From the IMG/VR virus record IMGVR_UViG_3300020141_000582, positions 1 to 21,283 of that record: a DNA stretch of 21,283 nt. The stretch is one strand, 5' to 3'. A program made the position numbers and the translations under genes. The notes beneath the pieces are model-generated. The model made no database searches, was not told the DNA's origin, and worked only from the letters and a program-made list of their open reading frames with translations. Shown here piece after piece: positions 1 to 19,518 of the stretch. How positions within the stretch are numbered: position 1 is the first letter of the stretch; each line of letters begins with the position of its first letter. The stretch comes from a virus.

Positions 1-174
1 ACCGCTTTGATCGATAAAGATGCGGTTAGTTGTGGCAATGGCCAATGCGGCTGTTGCGTTAGGGCTAACTGTGACCATATTTGGAATCACAGGCGCACTA
101 GGTGCTGATACCGCAGTCTGTGCCATGACTGGGAACACTGATAGTATTGCTATTGCTAATAATATTTGTTTCAT
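1..174 (-). CDS. Exported protein, possible curlin-like subunit (3' part outside window)
   Basis: An ATG at 174-172, preceded by the ribosome-binding sequence GAGGA, opens a frame of 58 codons that runs off the left edge. The first ~19 residues (MKQILLAIAILSVFPVMA) are a typical Sec signal peptide with cleavage near VMA/Q. A Ser/Ala/Pro/Thr-rich spacer follows, and the last visible residues are NRIFIDQSG. That stretch resembles the start of a curlin repeat (N-x-V/I-x-I-x-Q-x-G), the unit of CsgA/CsgB amyloid subunits. The gene lies just downstream of csgF and csgG on the same strand, as expected for a substrate of that channel. Signal peptide and reading frame are seen directly; curlin identity is inference from a single partial repeat. 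It could be any other small exported protein. Confidence 0.6.
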   Translation of the reverse strand, partial: MKQILLAIAILSVFPVMAQTAVSAPSAPVIPNMVTVSPNATAALAIATTNRIFIDQSG

Positions 175-246
175 GTTGTTTTTCCTCGGACTTATGTAAT
201 GTCCTTCACATGTATTTAAAACTATGCTCCTAAAAGTAAACTACTG

Positions 247-295
247 CTGTTAATTTTTTTACGTGTAAATTTTTTTACTGTAAAAAAATCAACAG
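247..295 (-). promoter_or_regulatory. Long hairpin between csgG and the exported-protein gene
   Basis: The arms 280-295 and 247-262 pair over 16 positions around a 17-base loop. Read as minus-strand RNA the stem has 15 Watson-Crick pairs plus one G-U wobble; read as plus-strand RNA the same position is an A-C mismatch, so the minus strand is favoured. The stem contains a run of seven A-U pairs. It could attenuate or stabilise the transcript between csgG and the next gene. It is not a standard terminator because no U-tract follows the stem. Confidence 0.5.
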
Positions 296-310
296 TTATT
301 CTTTTTATTA

Positions 311-1249
311 TTACTTCCAGAACTGGAGTTTTCCCCAGATACTCGTTGCTTTGCTTCCTTCAACACTTTTTCCGCTATCGGACTGCTGTGGTGCGGGTGT
401 AGCTTTGGCTGCGTCTTTGGTCTTGGTTTGTGCTTGAACCAACTCATTGGACTTCTCCTTGAATTGCCATAAGCCACTACGTTCGCCTTTCTTAATTAAC
501 TCAATAACTGCTGTTTCGATTGCTGAACGTAGGGCGTAGTTACCTGGCTCGTTAAATGTTTGGCTTGAATCAAATTCAAATGCCTGGGTTGCCTGGTTGA
601 AAAACTTCAACGCAGTTGCGCCATCGGCGGTGCTGAGCAAGTTCTTTTCTACTGTAACAGTAGTTAATACTTCCCCAGTTTGTACACTGACTAGTCGTAA
701 GCTGATAACAACCACGTCTTGTGTGTATGCGGTAGATGTTCCAATACCCAACCACCGAGCACCTGTGCCGCCTGTTAAGGTATTGCTGTTATAATCAATA
801 ATGCCGCCTTCTAGAATAACACCTGCCATCTGTAGTGGAGGTAACATTTTGGCATTAGCACCGTCGTAGATCTCACGTGTCTGTTTGATCATCTGACGCT
901 CTTTTAACAAGTTGTCAAGGCCAACACGTTCAACAACTGTGAACCACTGACGATTGCCAACTTCTTGTAAACTCTTCATTAGGTATGCTTCAGCACCCTG
1001 TGTAACTGCTGTGCTAAACAAGCTCAATGTTGAACTTGGCTTACGCTGTCCTGTTAAGTCCTTAAAACCATATACTGCCACTGTGACTGCTGGGCCTGCT
1101 GGACTTGGTACATTGGCAAAACTCTTGTTGATTGTTTCACTAACTGTAGCTTCTTCTTTGATCTTAGTACTGCCCCATGGACGTACCGTAGAGCAGCCAG
1201 CTAGGGCTACTATGGCTAGTGTGATTAAGGATAATTTAATTGCTTTCAT
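311..1249 (-). CDS. csgG: CsgG-type curli secretion channel lipoprotein
   Basis: A 312-residue CsgG homologue. The N-terminus is a lipoprotein signal with lipobox LAGC (lipidated Cys19). The body carries CsgG family features: the VAVYGFKDLTGQ segment near residue 57, the WFTVVERVGLDNLLKERQ segment near 102-119, an ILEGGIIDYNSNT segment near 145-157 and a second strand pair (VVISLRLVSVQTGEV) near 179-193. In bacteria CsgG forms a nonameric outer-membrane pore that exports curlin subunits. It is 9 bases downstream of csgF and has a clear Shine-Dalgarno (AAGGAG). The C-terminal ~50 residues are a polar Lys/Ser/Gln-rich tail. In a phage genome the role is uncertain: export of an adhesin, envelope permeabilisation, or surface modification. 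Homology is secure; the phage role is not. Confidence 0.92.
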   Translation of the reverse strand: MKAIKLSLITLAIVALAGCSTVRPWGSTKIKEEATVSETINKSFANVPSPAGPAVTVAVYGFKDLTGQRKPSSTLSLFSTAVTQGAEAYLMKSLQEVGNRQWFTVVERVGLDNLLKERQMIKQTREIYDGANAKMLPPLQMAGVILEGGIIDYNSNTLTGGTGARWLGIGTSTAYTQDVVVISLRLVSVQTGEVLTTVTVEKNLLSTADGATALKFFNQATQAFEFDSSQTFNEPGNYALRSAIETAVIELIKKGERSGLWQFKEKSNELVQAQTKTKDAAKATPAPQQSDSGKSVEGSKATSIWGKLQFWK

Positions 1250-1258
1250 GTGTTCTCC

Positions 1259-1744
1259 TTAAAAACTAAAACTGGCAATTGGAACTACAACAGTGGTCTT
1301 GCTACCTTTGACATCTACCACTGTCAGTGTGACCTTGTCGTTGGCCTTGGCCCACGTAACTGTATTGCCATCCAAGGCAAAAGTACCTGTAGTTGGATTG
1401 ACACAACCTGGGATTGCTGAGCCATCAGCAGCCGCACATTTGTTTGTGAATAGGTTGTTGCTTAACTGTGTGGCTAGTTGAGCATATATTTGACTTTGGA
1501 ACAGACTCATAAATCTATTCAACGGTGTGTTTAATAATTCAGCTTCGGCTTTGGCAATAGCAGATTTTTTATCTGCTTCAATAGCATCACGACGCGACTT
1601 TTCGATACTGTCGATTGTTAGCACGTGGCTACTGAAGCCAATGCCGCTAAAGGCCGGATTTTTAAATTGTTGAACTAATTCTGCATTTGCTGTAGCGCAC
1701 ACGAAAACAACCGTAGCGGCAAGCATTTGTATCGATAATCTCAT
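1259..1744 (-). CDS. csgF: CsgF-type curli assembly factor
   Basis: A 161-residue protein with a Sec signal peptide (cleavage near ANA/E, residues 21/22). The mature N-terminus ELVQQFKNPAFSG matches the CsgF start (in E. coli, a QFRNPNFGG element), which inserts into the CsgG pore to form its second constriction. The middle has the F-x-SQI-x-x-QL helix and the C-terminus is beta-rich (KVTLTVVDVKGSKTTVVV), as in CsgF. The 45-residue insertion containing two cysteines (Cys103 and Cys115) is unlike E. coli CsgF. It lies directly upstream of csgG. The leader holds an 8-bp hairpin abutting the ribosome binding site. CsgF normally couples secretion to curlin nucleation at the cell surface. Confidence 0.85.
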   Translation of the reverse strand: MRLSIQMLAATVVFVCATANAELVQQFKNPAFSGIGFSSHVLTIDSIEKSRRDAIEADKKSAIAKAEAELLNTPLNRFMSLFQSQIYAQLATQLSNNLFTNKCAAADGSAIPGCVNPTTGTFALDGNTVTWAKANDKVTLTVVDVKGSKTTVVVPIASFSF

Positions 1745-1754
1745 TGGTTCGCTC

Positions 1755-1773
1755 CTTGAGTACTTTACTCAAG
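1755..1773 (-). promoter_or_regulatory. csgF leader hairpin overlapping the ribosome binding site
   Basis: A perfect 8-bp inverted repeat (CTTGAGTA / TACTCAAG, 3-base loop) ends inside the AAGGAG Shine-Dalgarno of csgF, so half of that site is paired in the hairpin. Immediately upstream is GGTAAATA (1781-1774), a weak match to the T4 late box. The arrangement would suit a transcript starting just before the hairpin and translation control of csgF. Structure is seen; function is inferred. Confidence 0.5.
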
Positions 1774-1808
1774 TATTTACCAAAGTTTGTGTTAGATTAA
1801 ATGGGTGC

Positions 1809-2183
1809 TTAACTATAAATGCAAATAAACCAAACTACCGCCATGTATGATAGTTGGTGGGCCAATTGATCAAGGCCAAATTGATTCCAGTACAATGGAG
1901 TGGTGTTGTCTTTACTACCATATTTTACTTTAGTGTAGTCTATCAAGTAATGATATATGCCTTCTAAAGATACTACAAGTAACATAGTTAACGGTGCTAT
2001 AGGATGTATAAATGAAAATAGTAATAATATAACAAAGGAAGCAAGCATGTGGTCCCTAGTATGGGTCATGCCGATTGGATCCAACCATACGCCCTTTTTA
2101 ACGGTTTGCATGTAGGTCTGTATTTTGAAATCAGCATACCAGTGCTTGATTTGAAAAAGTGTTAAAAGTAAGAGAATTTCCAT
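1809..2183 (-). CDS. DUF3307-like small membrane protein
   Basis: A 124-residue hydrophobic protein. It shows the DUF3307 pattern: an N-terminal HWYADFKIQ element (residues 14-22), a central HTRDHMLASF segment (near 41-50), a membrane helix followed by H-Y-L-I-D-Y-T-K (near 78-85), and a C-terminal FGLDQLAHQLSYM element (near 102-114). Three to four membrane segments are likely. DUF3307 proteins occur in bacteria and in phage genomes and have no established function. A perfect TATAAATA late box lies 6 bases upstream of the ATG and no Shine-Dalgarno is visible, so the start may be leaderless. The HWYADF motif near the N-terminus argues against a much later start. Confidence 0.75.
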   Translation of the reverse strand: MEILLLLTLFQIKHWYADFKIQTYMQTVKKGVWLDPIGMTHTRDHMLASFVILLLFSFIHPIAPLTMLLVVSLEGIYHYLIDYTKVKYGSKDNTTPLYWNQFGLDQLAHQLSYMAVVWFICIYS

Positions 2184-4818: not shown

Positions 4819-5500
4819 CTATCTCCGGGAACAGACATTCTTGAATGAAATGCCGTACATCTTCCTCACTAAGCCCTAAACTAACCATAACTTTGGGTGT
4901 ATGTGGGTTTTGCTTCTGATTTTGAGCATAGTAGTTCTGCGCTTCTGTAGTGTTTTCTGCGGTATTATTAGTTTCTGCCACAGTTTCTAAGTAATGTGCT
5001 AATGTAGTTTTAGCCATACTAAAGATTTGCTCTAGTTCTGCTTCATCGCTAACATTGCCTGCGGCTACCATGCTAGGGCTGAATATGTTAGTTGCCCATT
5101 CTGGCAATGCTCGTGGCTTACGCCATTCTAACTTGCTAATTTCCTCAGCAAACCAGTCCATCATAGGATGGTTAGGGTCTCCAGCACGGCTGTAATCGTG
5201 GAAACAACCAGTCATTTTGTTCTTACCGGCTACTACATCGAAGCCGTATATTGGAGCAGGATTATGTGTATGTGGAAAGATGCAACAGTGCATCATCCAG
5301 AGTCCTTTTGTCGATCTAGCATCCACCACATCAACGTGAGCACGACGATATCTATCACTACTCCACACACGATTAACCCATCCCGGCTGATTAAAACGGT
5401 CCATACCAGGTTCATGAATTTCTCTTCCAGTAGCATCGAAAGACTCCTCGAGGAGATGCTGAATTTCTATTAGTGTATCCCAGACTTTACTTTGGCTCAT
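4814..5500 (-). CDS. pcyX: Ferredoxin-dependent bilin reductase, PcyX type
   Basis: A 228-residue member of the ferredoxin-dependent bilin reductase family, which reduces biliverdin IX-alpha to phycobilins using reduced ferredoxin. Against cyanobacterial PcyA, the KGLWMMHCCIFPH block (residues 65-77) carries His71 (PcyA His88) and IYGFDVVAGKNKMTGCFHDYS (84-104) carries Asp102 (PcyA Asp105), the two proton-relay residues. The C-terminus (YYAQNQKQN, then LFPEIV) also matches. At the PcyA Glu76 position there is Asp57 (HVD for HLE), so full PcyA chemistry is unlikely. PcyX, described from phages, makes phycoerythrobilin and pairs with heme oxygenase, as here. I chose ATG 5500 over a TTG 6 bases upstream; it overlaps the heme oxygenase end by 14 bases, indicating coupling. 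The exact product is inferred. Confidence 0.82.
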   Translation of the reverse strand: MSQSKVWDTLIEIQHLLEESFDATGREIHEPGMDRFNQPGWVNRVWSSDRYRRAHVDVVDARSTKGLWMMHCCIFPHTHNPAPIYGFDVVAGKNKMTGCFHDYSRAGDPNHPMMDWFAEEISKLEWRKPRALPEWATNIFSPSMVAAGNVSDEAELEQIFSMAKTTLAHYLETVAETNNTAENTTEAQNYYAQNQKQNPHTPKVMVSLGLSEEDVRHFIQECLFPEIV

Positions 5501-6047
5501 CGACAAACTCTACAAATTCCATCATCTCTTCAAACATCTTACCAGCATACTCGAAACATACAATAGCTTCATCGGCTAGGCTGTCATCTAGTTTAGCACG
5601 TAGAATATTTTTAATGGTCTCAGGATCGTCTCCGAACTGATACATTTTACCAGCACCTGGCACACGTTTAGCAATCATCTGTCCGCCGCTCAAGTCGCCA
5701 AAGTGTCTAACATACAAGTGTGCTAATAGTTTCTTAGGATCGTCTTTGATACTAAGAATATATTTGATGTACTCGTTTACAGTTGGACACATTTGTGGTT
5801 GTGCTTGGTCGTCTGCCCATAGTTCCATAAAGTCTTCTAGAATAGCAGGGGCACGACGGATAGCAGGATAGTCGTTTAGTAAACCATGCGGCATGGCACA
5901 CACTTCTAAAATCTCATAGCAAGGGTGCTGATTTTTAAGAAACGTTGCGTAAAGTTTAGGATTGATTTTTCCTGAAAATAACACTTTAACAAACGGTTTA
6001 GTCTCCGCTGATTTATGTGCGGCGTGTGTAAGGTCTTTTAAACTCAT
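5487..6047 (-). CDS. ho: Heme oxygenase (HO-1 family)
   Basis: A 186-residue heme oxygenase, which opens heme to biliverdin, CO and ferrous iron using reduced ferredoxin. The proximal heme ligand is His11 in LTHAAHKSAETKPFVK. The distal-helix signature LYVRHFGDLSGGQMIAKR (residues 111-128) with its flexible glycines is intact. It is shorter than cyanobacterial HO1 (about 240 residues), missing mostly the C-terminal tail, as usual for phage versions. The start codon overlaps the clpS stop as ATGA, and the bilin reductase follows with a 14-base overlap, so the three are probably translationally coupled. Together with PcyX it makes a two-step heme-to-bilin pathway; the released iron may matter as much as the pigment. 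Confidence 0.93.
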   Translation of the reverse strand: MSLKDLTHAAHKSAETKPFVKVLFSGKINPKLYATFLKNQHPCYEILEVCAMPHGLLNDYPAIRRAPAILEDFMELWADDQAQPQMCPTVNEYIKYILSIKDDPKKLLAHLYVRHFGDLSGGQMIAKRVPGAGKMYQFGDDPETIKNILRAKLDDSLADEAIVCFEYAGKMFEEMMEFVEFVDEPK

Positions 6048-6346
6048 TCTTCTTCCAATTTAATCTGTAATGGGAATCCGTTTTGTCTAGCCAAGTTAGT
6101 TGCTTCTACTGCCTTAGCTTCGGCAATTTCAAAACTGTATACGCCGGCGATGCCACTACCTGTTTCATGTACTTGCATTGTAACATCTTCTGCCGACTCA
6201 TCTGTATGCCTAAAAATTTCAATTAGAACTTGTATGACAAAGTTCATCGGAGTCGATTCGTCATTCAGGAAAATGACCTTCCAGTTTTTAGGCTCTCGAG
6301 TAGTAACCTTGACTTTTTCGTCTAATTGGATGTCTGTTATTGGCAT
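6044..6346 (-). CDS. clpS: ClpS adaptor for N-end rule proteolysis
   Basis: A 100-residue ClpS. This adaptor hands proteins with bulky N-terminal residues to the ClpAP protease. The N-degron pocket is preserved: NDE at 28-30 (E. coli NDD), Met34 in STPMNFVIQVL, and His60 in VHETGSG. The length matches bacterial ClpS, and a flexible ~20-residue N-terminal extension, needed for ClpA engagement, is present. It follows hsp20, separated by a GAAA-tetraloop hairpin, and its stop overlaps the heme oxygenase start (ATGA). ClpS is known from marine T4-like phages. It probably redirects the host protease to selected substrates; the partner ClpA/ClpP is not in the window. Confidence 0.93.
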   Translation of the reverse strand: MPITDIQLDEKVKVTTREPKNWKVIFLNDESTPMNFVIQVLIEIFRHTDESAEDVTMQVHETGSGIAGVYSFEIAEAKAVEATNLARQNGFPLQIKLEEE

Positions 6347-6389: not shown

Positions 6390-6397
6390 TATTTATT
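6390..6397 (-). promoter_or_regulatory. Late promoter-like box (AATAAATA) upstream of clpS
   Basis: One mismatch to TATAAATA, overlapping the hsp20 stop codon. A start about 6 bases downstream would give an mRNA whose 5' end is almost exactly the GAAA hairpin. Confidence 0.35.
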
Positions 6398-6815
6398 TAA
6401 CTTCGATTTGACGAGGCTTCAACGCTTCAGGAACAACACGCATGATTTCAATCACCAGCATACCGTCCTTAACTTCTGCCGCATACACTTCCATATATTC
6501 AGCAAGAGTAAATTGTTGTTCAAAGTCTCTAGCGGCCAAACCACGATGTAGGTATTCGAAACGGCTATCAGACTGATTTAGTTTGCGTCCCTTTACAGTA
6601 AGCTGATCTTGATCAACTTCTACTGTAATTTCTTCCCTACTAAAACCAGCCACAGCAATTTCGATTCCGTAATGGGTTTCGTCATATTTTACAATGTTGT
6701 GTGGCGGGTAATTACCATTTGTGTGACTTGGTACGTTAAAATAACGATCAAATCCTACTAGTGCTCTACTTATTTGGGCAAGAGCTGCCGCGTCGATTGT
6801 TCTTAGTTGTGTCAT
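6393..6815 (-). CDS. Small heat-shock protein (Hsp20/IbpA type)
   Basis: A 140-residue alpha-crystallin domain protein that holds unfolding proteins for refolding by DnaK. The N-terminus (LVGFDRYFN, residues 19-27) and YPPHNIVKYDE (37-47) are IbpA-like. The crystallin core spans about 40-125, with IEIAVAGFSREEITVEV and the closing AAEVKDGMLVIEI (A-x-x-x-x-G-x-L) motif. I chose ATG 6815 because AAGGAGA lies 5-6 bases upstream; a TTG further upstream at 6836 lacks this. It sits directly downstream of dnaK and shares a duplicated leader with it. Hsp20 genes are widespread in T4-like cyanophages and related viruses. Confidence 0.93.
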   Translation of the reverse strand: MTQLRTIDAAALAQISRALVGFDRYFNVPSHTNGNYPPHNIVKYDETHYGIEIAVAGFSREEITVEVDQDQLTVKGRKLNQSDSRFEYLHRGLAARDFEQQFTLAEYMEVYAAEVKDGMLVIEIMRVVPEALKPRQIEVK

Positions 6816-6878
6816 AATTATCTCCTTATTAAGCAAGAACTATGTAGGGCCCCGAAGGCGCCCTACGTTTATATTATA
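6816..6878 (-). promoter_or_regulatory. hsp20 leader with cUUCGg hairpin, duplicate of the dnaK leader
   Basis: A hairpin at 66-44 of the 6800s (6866-6844) has a 9-bp stem with one bulged G (6859) and a UUCG loop closed by C-G, one of the most stable RNA tetraloops. It is followed by the single-stranded string TTCTTGCTTAA and then TAAGGAGA. The same hairpin shape, the same bulged G and nearly the same downstream string occur before dnaK. Upstream of the hairpin, ATATAAAC may be a degenerate late box. No U-tract follows the stem. Confidence 0.6.
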
Positions 6879-8792
6879 TTACTTCTTATCAGCAGGGTCA
6901 ACTTCTTTGAACTCTGCGTCTACTGTTTGTTCACCAGTCTGCTGTGCTTTGGCTTCGGCTTGCGCTTTAGCTGATTCTGCTTCTTGCTTCTTGGTAAACA
7001 CCGGTGCGGCACTTTCAAACAAACTCTGGACTGCTTTACCAATTGCTTCTGTGTCTTCTCCAGCTGTTGCTGTTTCAACACTAGTAAATGCTTCTTCAAT
7101 CTTTGTTTTGTCTTCTTCAGTGAGTTGATCTTTGTAAGCGTCAAACTCTTTCTTAACAGAATGAACTTGTGCTTCAGCACCGTTACGTGCTTCGATCAAT
7201 TCTTTTGCCTTTTTATCTGACTCTGCGTTTTCTTCTGCTTCGCGAACCATACGCTGGATCTCAGCTTCAGTTAATCCAGAATCGGATTTGATAGTAATCT
7301 TATTTTCTTTGCCAGTGTTTTTATCTTTGGCACTTACGTTAAGAATACCGTTTGCGTCGATATCAAGTGTAACTTCAATCTGTGGAGTTCCACGTGGAGC
7401 GGCATTGATACCTTCCAGATTAAATTCACCCAATAACTTGTTGTACTTAAACAACTCACGTTCGCCTTGCGCTACTTTAATAGTAACTGCTGGCTGATTG
7501 TCTTCTGCTGTTGAGAATACTTGTGAGTGCTTAGTTGGAATAGTTGTGTTCTTTTGAATCAACTTGGTAAACACACCGCCCATTGTTTCAATACCTAGTG
7601 TCAATGGAGTCACGTCCAACAACAATACGTCTGTCTTGTCGCCTGCTAGTACAGCACCTTGGATTGCAGCGCCTGCGGCCACAGCTTCGTCTGGGTTAAC
7701 ATCCTTGCGTGGTTGCTTGCCAAACAATTTTTCAACTGCTTCTTGTACCTTAGGCATACGTGTTTGTCCGCCAACAAGGATAACTTCATCAATGTCTGCG
7801 GCTGTTACGTTGGCATCTTTCATAGCAACTTTACATGGATCGATTGAACGTTCAATTAACTTCTCGACCATCTGTTCAAACTTAGCACGAGTCAACTTGA
7901 CGTTCATGTGCTTAGGACCTGTTGCGTCTGCTGTAATGTATGGCAAGTTAATGTCTGTACTAGCTGAACTAGACAATTCAATCTTGGCCTTTTCTGCGGC
8001 TTCTTTCAAACGTTGTAGAGCAAGCATATCTTGTTTCAAGTCCACTGCGTTGTCTTTCTTAAACTCTGCTACTAGGTAATCCATAATAGCTTGGTCAAAG
8101 TCCTCACCGCCTAGGAAGGTATCGCCGTTTGTTGACAATACTTCGATTTGCTTGTCGCCGTCAATGTTGGCAATTTCAATGATAGAGATATCAAATGTAC
8201 CACCACCCAAGTCATATACAGCAATCTTACGATCACGCTTGTCTTGTTTGTCAACACCGTAGGCAAGAGCAGCCGCTGTTGGTTCGTTGATAATACGCAG
8301 GACTTCTAGTCCAGCAATCTTACCTGCGTCTTTAGTTGCTTGGCGTTGGCTATCGTTAAAGTAAGCAGGCACGGTGATAACTGCTTGGGTAACTGTAGTA
8401 CCCAAATAGTCCTCTGCTGTCTTTTTCATTTTGCGTAACACTTCCGCAGACACTTGCTGTGGTGCCAACTTCTCGCCATTTGCTTCGATCCAAGCATCAC
8501 CATTGTCTGCTTTGACAATGTTATATGGCATTAAGCCAATGTCTTTTTGTACTTCTTTTTCGTCAAACTTGCGGCCAATAAGGCGCTTACTTGCGTAGAT
8601 TGTATTCTTTGGATTTGTGACTGCTTGTCGTTTTGCTGTTGCGCCAACTAAGACTTCGTCTTTTGTATACGCAATGATCGATGGTGTTGTTCTAGCACCT
8701 TCGCTGTTTTCGATTACTTTAGCAACTCCGTTTTCTAGAATTGCTACACAGCTATTTGTTGTACCTAAGTCGATACCGATGATTTTGCTCAT
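6879..8792 (-). CDS. dnaK: Molecular chaperone DnaK (Hsp70), full length
   Basis: A complete 637-residue DnaK. The nucleotide-binding domain has phosphate-1 loop [11 protein letters not shown] (residues 6-16), [10 protein letters not shown], the [11 protein letters not shown] connect segment and phosphate-2 loop YDLGGGTFD. The hydrophobic interdomain linker [10 protein letters not shown] near residue 390 is intact, followed by a normal substrate-binding domain, helical lid and a charged tail with the VDAEFKEV element that ends bacterial DnaK. Length and motifs match proteobacterial DnaK (about 640 residues), with no frameshift. The co-chaperones DnaJ and GrpE are not in the window and would have to come from the host. 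It is likely coordinated with hsp20 through a shared leader. A full Hsp70 is uncommon in phages; host origin by transfer is likely. TAAAGGAGA precedes the ATG. Confidence 0.97.
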
Positions 8793-13393: not shown

Positions 13394-13924
13394 TCAATTA
13401 TAAAAAATGTGGCGGCCGATTTTAGCCACAGGTTGTTTGCCCCATTTTGGGTTGATGTAATCTCCATGGAAATAAAGAGCATGTTTAACTGAAGGTAATC
13501 TAAATCCTTCTAACAGTACTTTCTTTGCCACTTCCATACTTTCTGTATAGACTGCGCCGTTCATAGGCTTGTGTAAACTTGCTTGATCGCAGTACCAGCT
13601 GAACTGGCAAAGCACCTTTTCGTACACTATGTTCTTTTGATAAACCACCCGGCAGATTTCACTTGGAAATTGGCCACTTTCAACTCTGTTTAAAGTAACT
13701 TGGGCAACTGCTACCTTTCCTTCAAACGGCTCGTAGCCTGCTTCGTGGTAGATATTTCGGGCGAGACAGTCTAGTTGTGTTTGTCTCATTTTGGCTGTAA
13801 CTTGGCTTGCTTCCACTTGAGCCGATCTCAAGTTATCCAATTTGTATGTTACAGCTTTAACTGTTGTTAATCCAATTATCACAATTGATAAAAGAATTGC
13901 TAATGTTTTTATGATGCGTATCAT
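13394..13924 (-). CDS. SleB-type cell-wall hydrolase (probable endolysin)
   Basis: A 176-residue protein with an N-terminal membrane anchor (residues ~4-24) and a catalytic domain of the Hydrolase_2/SleB family. The signature CLARNIYHEAGYEP (53-66) includes the likely catalytic Glu61, followed by FEGKVAVAQVTLNRV (67-81). Downstream motifs (CQFSWYCD near 108-115, ALYFHGD near 149-155) also fit. SleB-like enzymes are lytic transglycosylases or amidase-like muralytic enzymes; the exact bond cut is not settled by sequence. The uncleaved anchor suggests export through the host Sec system, as in SAR-type endolysins. It has AAAGGAG before the ATG, and a small membrane protein follows immediately. 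Confidence 0.9.
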   Translation of the reverse strand: MIRIIKTLAILLSIVIIGLTTVKAVTYKLDNLRSAQVEASQVTAKMRQTQLDCLARNIYHEAGYEPFEGKVAVAQVTLNRVESGQFPSEICRVVYQKNIVYEKVLCQFSWYCDQASLHKPMNGAVYTESMEVAKKVLLEGFRLPSVKHALYFHGDYINPKWGKQPVAKIGRHIFYN

Positions 13925-18833: not shown

Positions 18834-19160
18834 TTATACTCTAAAACTTTCTCCACAACCACAACGATCTCGTTCGTTAGGGTTGTTAAATTCAAATCCT
18901 TCGTTTAGGCCGTTGCGGACCCAATCCATTGTTAGCCCTTTTAAATAAGGCTCGTCTTTAAAACTTACTAGTACTGCAAAATCAGGTTGGGCATAATTTG
19001 TTACACCTACTTCATACTCTATACTATCTACATATTCTAACACATAAGCTAATCCAGAGCAACCTGTAGTTTTTACGCCAATCCTAATACCAACGCCTTT
19101 TCCACGCTTGTCTAATGTTTGCTTAATTCTTTTAGACGCTGTGTCGGTTACGGTAATCAT
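18834..19160 (-). CDS. iscA: IscA-type iron-sulfur cluster carrier
   Basis: A 108-residue A-type carrier. The three conserved cysteines are Cys34 (TTGCSGLAYV) and Cys100/Cys102 (DRCGCGESF); the GLNEGFEFNNPN segment (84-95) is also typical of IscA. A-type carriers take clusters from IscU to client proteins and can bind iron. It overlaps iscU by 29 bases, so the pair is coupled. The sequence reads like a proteobacterial IscA, suggesting fairly recent host origin. No cysteine desulfurase (IscS), HscA/HscB or ferredoxin gene is in the window. Confidence 0.96.
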   Translation of the reverse strand: MITVTDTASKRIKQTLDKRGKGVGIRIGVKTTGCSGLAYVLEYVDSIEYEVGVTNYAQPDFAVLVSFKDEPYLKGLTMDWVRNGLNEGFEFNNPNERDRCGCGESFRV

Positions 19161-19518
19161 TTACGGCCGCCTTGATAGCATCTTCTGCTAGAATTGAACA
19201 ATGTATCTTGACCGGAGGCAATGCTAATTCTTCGGCGATTTCGGAGTTTTTGATTGCTCCGGCTTGGTCAAGTGTTTTTCCTTTGACCCATTCTGTAATG
19301 AGACTCGAACTCGCGATAGCCGATCCACAGCCATACGTTTTAAATTTTGCATCTGTAATAATACCTGTATCATGGTCAACCCTTATTTGAAGTTTCATTA
19401 CGTCGCCGCAAGCAGGTGCGCCAACCATACCAGTACCAATATCAGTATCACTCTTATCAAAAGATCCGACATTCCTGGGATTTTCATAATGGTCAATTAC
19501 CTTGTCCGAATAGCTCAT
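19132..19518 (-). CDS. iscU: IscU-type iron-sulfur cluster scaffold
   Basis: A 128-residue IscU, very close to proteobacterial IscU along its whole length. Cluster ligands Cys37 (APACGDVM), Cys64 (TYGCGSA) and Cys107 (IHCSIL) with Asp39 and His106 are intact, as is the LPPVK motif (100-104) recognised by the HscA chaperone. The scaffold builds [2Fe-2S] clusters with sulfur from IscS. Its ATG overlaps the nrdA stop as ATGA, and iscA overlaps its 3' end. Sulfur donor and chaperones would come from the host; note that the phage carries an Hsp70 (DnaK) elsewhere in this window, but that is DnaK-type, not HscA. Confidence 0.97.
   Translation of the reverse strand: MSYSDKVIDHYENPRNVGSFDKSDTDIGTGMVGAPACGDVMKLQIRVDHDTGIITDAKFKTYGCGSAIASSSLITEWVKGKTLDQAGAIKNSEIAEELALPPVKIHCSILAEDAIKAAVNDYRNRHSV

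Follow-up and report, generated by a model that had tools for sequence, protein, structure and literature searches.

The stretch of DNA that we analysed, called the window in the following, makes up an entire IMG/VR record (21283 bases), which carries its genes on the minus strand and ends at position 1. At this end lie csgF (1259..1744), which encodes the secreted, fibre-anchoring partner of an export pore (161 aa), csgG (311..1249), which encodes the outer-membrane lipoprotein pore itself (312 aa), and the first 58 codons of a first curlin gene (1..174), cut by the contig end. Directly upstream of csgF is the gene of a DUF3307 membrane protein (1809..2183, minus strand; PF11750, E 2.4e-9); an ORF of about 122 residues occupies this place in most loci and the order is the same in most relatives. 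The window contains the left portion of a type VIII (curli) secretion module encoded by the phage.

The source of the window is a large uncultured phage. Among the related records, the three largest (250, 383 and 327 kb) contain a T4-type Gp23 capsid protein (PF07068, E 1e-78 or better), and by this kinship, read in the relatives, the phage would probably belong to the T4 superfamily. It encodes a full-length DnaK of 637 aa (6879-8792), next to genes for an Hsp20 (6393-6836) and a ClpS-like protein (6044-6346), all on the minus strand; such a chaperone set is unusual for a phage. The best identity of the DnaK in a sample of 369 genomes was 72%, and no host was assigned from it. In one relative, L001, an ORF in the size range of DnaK is found upstream of csgF. 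Between the chaperone genes and the curli region the window has a gene for a heme-oxygenase-like protein, recognised by eye (5487-6047, minus strand), and L063, a contig binned as Pirellulales, has a similar gene order. Genes for IscU-like and HesB/IscA-like iron-sulphur scaffold proteins adjoin ribonucleotide reductase (18834-19518, minus strand).

As the original prediction stated, csgF and csgG are consecutive and both begin with signal sequences. CsgF matches its family profile well above the curated cut-off (PF10614, E 5e-12, 46.6 bits, cut-off 25.8) and also phrog_35372 (E 7e-34), while comparison to PDB sequences gave only chance-level matches. Its signal looks cleavable (...CATANA), and its N-terminal sequence QFKNPAFSG resembles the peptide that CsgF inserts into CsgG. 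CsgG covers positions 8-208 of the 210 in its profile (PF03783, E 9e-51, 172.6 bits, cut-off 20.8) and matches E. coli CsgG structures with an E-value of 7.5e-44; its lipoprotein signal ends in LAGC, with the lipobox Cys19 invariant in 27 homologues. In comparisons with six relatives, dN/dS ranged from 0.06 to 0.33 across csgF, csgG and the curlin fragment, and the low values for csgG (0.08-0.14) and csgF (0.06-0.11) show selection for function rather than chance.

For the third gene, the claim that it opens with a signal peptide holds: in the fragment MKQILLAIAILSVFPVMAQTAVSAPSAPVIPNMVTVSPNATAALAIATTNRIFIDQSG, a short linker joins the signal peptide to the first half of a repeat of curlin type (...NRIFIDQSG). 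The curlin profile PF07012 is not matched in the window itself, because the gene is truncated to 58 residues. We therefore read the missing part from orthologues in the relatives, 58 viral loci collected by a CsgG search, the nearest of which is 95% identical. The fragment is 67-86% identical to full-length curlins of these relatives, which have 262 or 286 residues. The 262-residue orthologue of L001 matches PF07012 with an E-value of 1.3e-7 (31.9 bits, cut-off 20.7), and 23 of 43 full-length orthologues match it at E<=0.01. Each of the 41 sequences in our alignment (A5) contains three or more QxGxxN motifs, against a mean of 0.18 after shuffling, and three copies are invariant in the aligned orthologues (Q67-G69-N72, Q94-G96-N99, Q122-G124-N127). 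An AlphaFold2 model of the first curlin, one of two structure predictions for which isolate sequences were left out of the alignments, is a strand-turn ladder (pLDDT 83), without a match to a solved fold in PDB at E<=0.001. Judged by the sequences of its orthologues, the third gene is a curlin. Since the orthologues of the truncated ORF carry curlin repeats, the guess that an exported substrate lies beside the pore pair was right.

In the near relatives, the module runs in the order csgF, csgG, first curlin, exported FecR, second curlin and CHASE2 adenylate cyclase. This full order is present in L001 and L006, and the window holds csgF, csgG and the start of the curlin. In L001, the 262-residue curlin is followed by FecR (392 aa), a 627-residue protein, a 161-residue protein and the beginning of one of CHASE2 type. 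We take the last to be the cyclase of the module, because of the CHASE2 domain in L006 and the annotations of an adenylate/guanylate cyclase in the pelagiphages HTVC008M and Melnitz. FecR, which is usually assumed to be a cytoplasmic regulator, has a Sec-type signal peptide at its start wherever the N-terminus is complete, and a strand like those of curlins at its end (...GQIVINQNFR, ...NAITINQTN). Due to these two features, it is more likely to be part of the exported fibre machinery.

The pore-lining residues, on which the original prediction partly depended, gave a mixed picture: of Y51, N55 and F56, the constriction residues of E. coli CsgG, the equivalent of F56 is kept, but the positions of Y51 and N55 are changed and the loop is one to two residues longer. 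Such a partly changed constriction would suit a substrate-free, gated pore that times lysis in the manner of a holin, as Buchholz et al. 2022 (PMC9004378) proposed for Melnitz, and so would the late-type promoter motif described below. Against this reading, which we consider very unlikely, stand the two curlin genes, FecR and cyclase conserved beside the pore, the purifying selection on the first curlin, FecR and the second curlin, and the two annotated curlin-repeat proteins of Melnitz itself; moreover, the window has a cell-wall hydrolase gene separate from the curli module (13394-13924). The related guess that the system helps to release progeny found no support in our analysis. A further proposal (PMC7029224, PMC9599517) is that ungated CsgG admits nutrients or cofactors into the infected cell. 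It agrees with a general scan of the module's ORFs, in which no CsgE-like gate was seen and csgE, csgD and csgC were not among the names given, but it leaves the curlins, their heads and the exchange of these heads unexplained and is, in our view, highly improbable.

The hexamer TAAATA, the core of T4-type late promoters, is found on the minus strand 35 nt upstream of csgF (1774..1779), where it is invariant in 10 aligned upstream regions, and again 44 nt upstream of the curlin gene (213..218), where it is invariant in 7 aligned intergenic regions. In relatives whose csgG and curlin genes are directly or almost directly adjacent, the second copy is absent. On the coding strand of the window, all 11 copies of the hexamer, two of which overlap, lie at most 70 nt upstream of an ORF start. 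Such upstream regions make up 10% of the window sequence, and the other hexamers with the same composition, four A and two T, have 7-53% of their copies there. A sigma-70 scan showed no promoter excess. Between the late-type motif and csgF lies a short inverted repeat (TTGAGTAAAGTACTCAA; 1755-1775, minus strand), which is not conserved in the relatives.

The second curlin and its heads are known from the relatives; the window's contig ends inside the first curlin. The protein is a chimera: the signal peptide is followed by an N-terminal head that can be replaced, and this by a conserved curlin stalk of 220-270 residues, which matches PF07012 in 16 of 39 members. The N-terminal region varies from about 20 residues, corresponding to the signal peptide only, to about 540. 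Heads with an F5/8 type C domain occur in 13 of the 39 members and with a PA14 domain in two, and several have no family name. In the model of the L001 protein (whole-model pTM 0.46), the head matches CBM32 structures in Foldseek searches (best F5/8-type match E 3e-6), several of which were solved with galactose or GalNAc. By local comparison we distinguished about ten types of head module, which occur singly or in pairs; the architectures include A-E, B-E, C-E, D-E, A-D, G-A, A-G, H-A and J-F, among others, where E is CBM32. The second curlin of L007 is split by a stop (L007:9122-11031), due to decay or an assembly error.

These heads are exchangeable between phages. In 43 of the 60 phage pairs whose CsgG identity is 90% or more, the two members have different head architectures. 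The clearest pair is L027 and L028. Over 9012 nt, as far as the last base of the sequence for the second curlin's signal peptide, their DNA is 98.3% identical; there, the two have unrelated heads of 563 and 1064 nt, beyond which the DNA is again 97.4% identical. Conversely, closely similar heads are found on divergent stalks: copies of head B with 85-88% identity sit on stalks only 34-41% alike (best match among others), in phages whose CsgG is 42-96% identical to that of the window, and L027 and L015 share head C at 91% identity; compared to the L001 stalk, that of L027 is 28% and that of L015 82% identical. L104 and L105 retain the head at this position of the operon, but in place of the stalk they have a C-terminus that, by eye, resembles an outer-membrane barrel and has no Pfam match; in L104, modules B and E are fused to this C-terminus (L104:3426-5777) in an otherwise intact curli operon. 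Retention of the head without the stalk is expected if head display is what is selected. The head is, however, not essential, since several relatives (L046, L050, L052, Melnitz) are without one.

We also considered whether the heads are shared with tail fibres, and dropped the idea because none of 27 related records has an intact second copy of one head and because searches with heads B and D gave curli loci only. The one head was matched in 18 of the 27 records; the matches in G005 are two pieces of a broken gene and the one in G020 is a fragment of 25 residues at a contig end. Heads B and D together led to 37 loci; 36 of them have csgG inside the 3.5 kb that we retrieved, and the remaining one breaks off within the head. 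A weak match to a PHROG 'tail protein' falls on the F5/8 domain.

Two other functions for head-bearing fibres have to be weighed against these data. The fibres and their heads could bind the surface glycans of the infected cell itself and hide receptors from rival phages, with heads that vary as the host glycans do, a superinfection shield as proposed for pelagiphage curli in PMC9599517. The anatomy would be the same, and cassette exchange fits variable surface polysaccharides; yet a shield should act early, whereas the promoter-like motif is of the late type, and several phages have no head at all. We consider it unlikely, if credible. Alternatively, the amyloid could act in the lysate, where its heads would tie virions and debris into clusters or to surfaces for collective dispersal. 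The late-type motif and the adhesive nature of the heads, predicted from their likeness to CBM32, would suit this, but heads B and D turned up in curli loci only and, as noted, the 27 related records have no intact second copy of the one head sought in them, making this reading quite improbable to us.

The reading we prefer is adhesion by the infected cell. Late in infection, the phage would make the CsgG-CsgF pore together with the curlins, which would leave the cell and polymerise at its surface, the first curlin as main subunit and the second as a subunit or tip that carries the head. These heads, some of which have the galactose- or GalNAc-binding CBM32 fold, would bind glycans on neighbouring cells, on particles or on the host's own envelope. 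This would serve to keep new hosts, or else the infected cell with its burst, near one another or attached to a surface, and phages would exchange heads as cassettes because the glycan target varies by host or habitat. That the module makes a late, exported, adhesive amyloid, whose head-bearing subunit gives the infected cell its binding specificity, is on the present sequences an even call. The fuller reading of a cassette-swap adhesin, in which lectin-like heads on a virus-encoded surface amyloid are shuffled between lineages much like tail-fibre tips and serve the infected cell rather than the virion, is more tentative, and we hold it with a little less than even confidence. If this holds, the virus would give its host, while still alive, a new coat of tailored adhesive. 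What phage-encoded curli do has been an open question since 2020, with sibling capture, uptake, lysis control and rival exclusion as proposals; exchangeable, glycan-binding-like heads point to binding and, together with natural phage pairs whose difference at this locus lies mainly in the head, make the question testable.

Much of this module has been described before. Zaragoza-Solas et al. 2020 (PMC7029224) reported csgF-csgG in pelagimyophages, with no recognised substrate, and Wittmers et al. 2022 (PMC9599517) found CsgA/B, FecR and adenylate cyclase in podoviral and myoviral pelagiphages, so that type VIII secretion with curlin subunits is already on record as a phage module. The deposited annotations of HTVC008M (KC465899) and Melnitz (MZ577097) also name curlin proteins in this slot, two of them in Melnitz, whose cultures did not clump (PMC9004378), which speaks against adhesion. 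The gene order of these pelagiphages (csgF, csgG, curlin, FecR, second curlin, cyclase) is that of the window's relatives. They differ in the second curlin, which has mosaic heads in most of the window's relatives, no head in Melnitz and a PA14 domain in HTVC008M. In podoviral pelagiphages, a histidine kinase precedes csgF (PMC9599517); the gene at this place in the window is that of the DUF3307 protein, and no histidine kinase was noticed in this slot. Literature searches for curlins with PA14 or for curli in jumbo phages returned nothing relevant, and PA14, discoidin and lectin are not mentioned in PMC9599517; the second curlin with its exchangeable heads is the part of this published module type that we did not find described.

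In the CsgG phylogeny, all sampled phage sequences form one clade (support 100/97), which includes one sequence from a bacterial MAG; most of the related matches among genome contigs were phage-like contigs from MAG bins, and these we did not class as bacterial. Within it, the window's relatives form a clade of their own with 45 sequences (100/100), and the CsgG of the window is 40-43% identical to those of the marine isolates. The best CsgG identity among 398 Pseudomonadota genomes was 49%. In bacterial csg loci (L069, L073-L084), which are mostly short, csgF-csgG adjoin curlin-repeat genes in several cases, and no head-bearing second curlin was noticed. Some of the heads resemble CBM32 and F5/8 type C domains, with a Pfam match over the cut-off and Foldseek matches to galactose-binding CBM32, but are fused to a curlin stalk and not to an enzyme. 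Compared to the csgBAC-csgDEFG system of E. coli, the phage module has in common the CsgG pore, its CsgF partner, which in the window is recognised by family profile only, and substrates built of curlin repeats; to these it adds the head on the second curlin, FecR and the CHASE2 cyclase.
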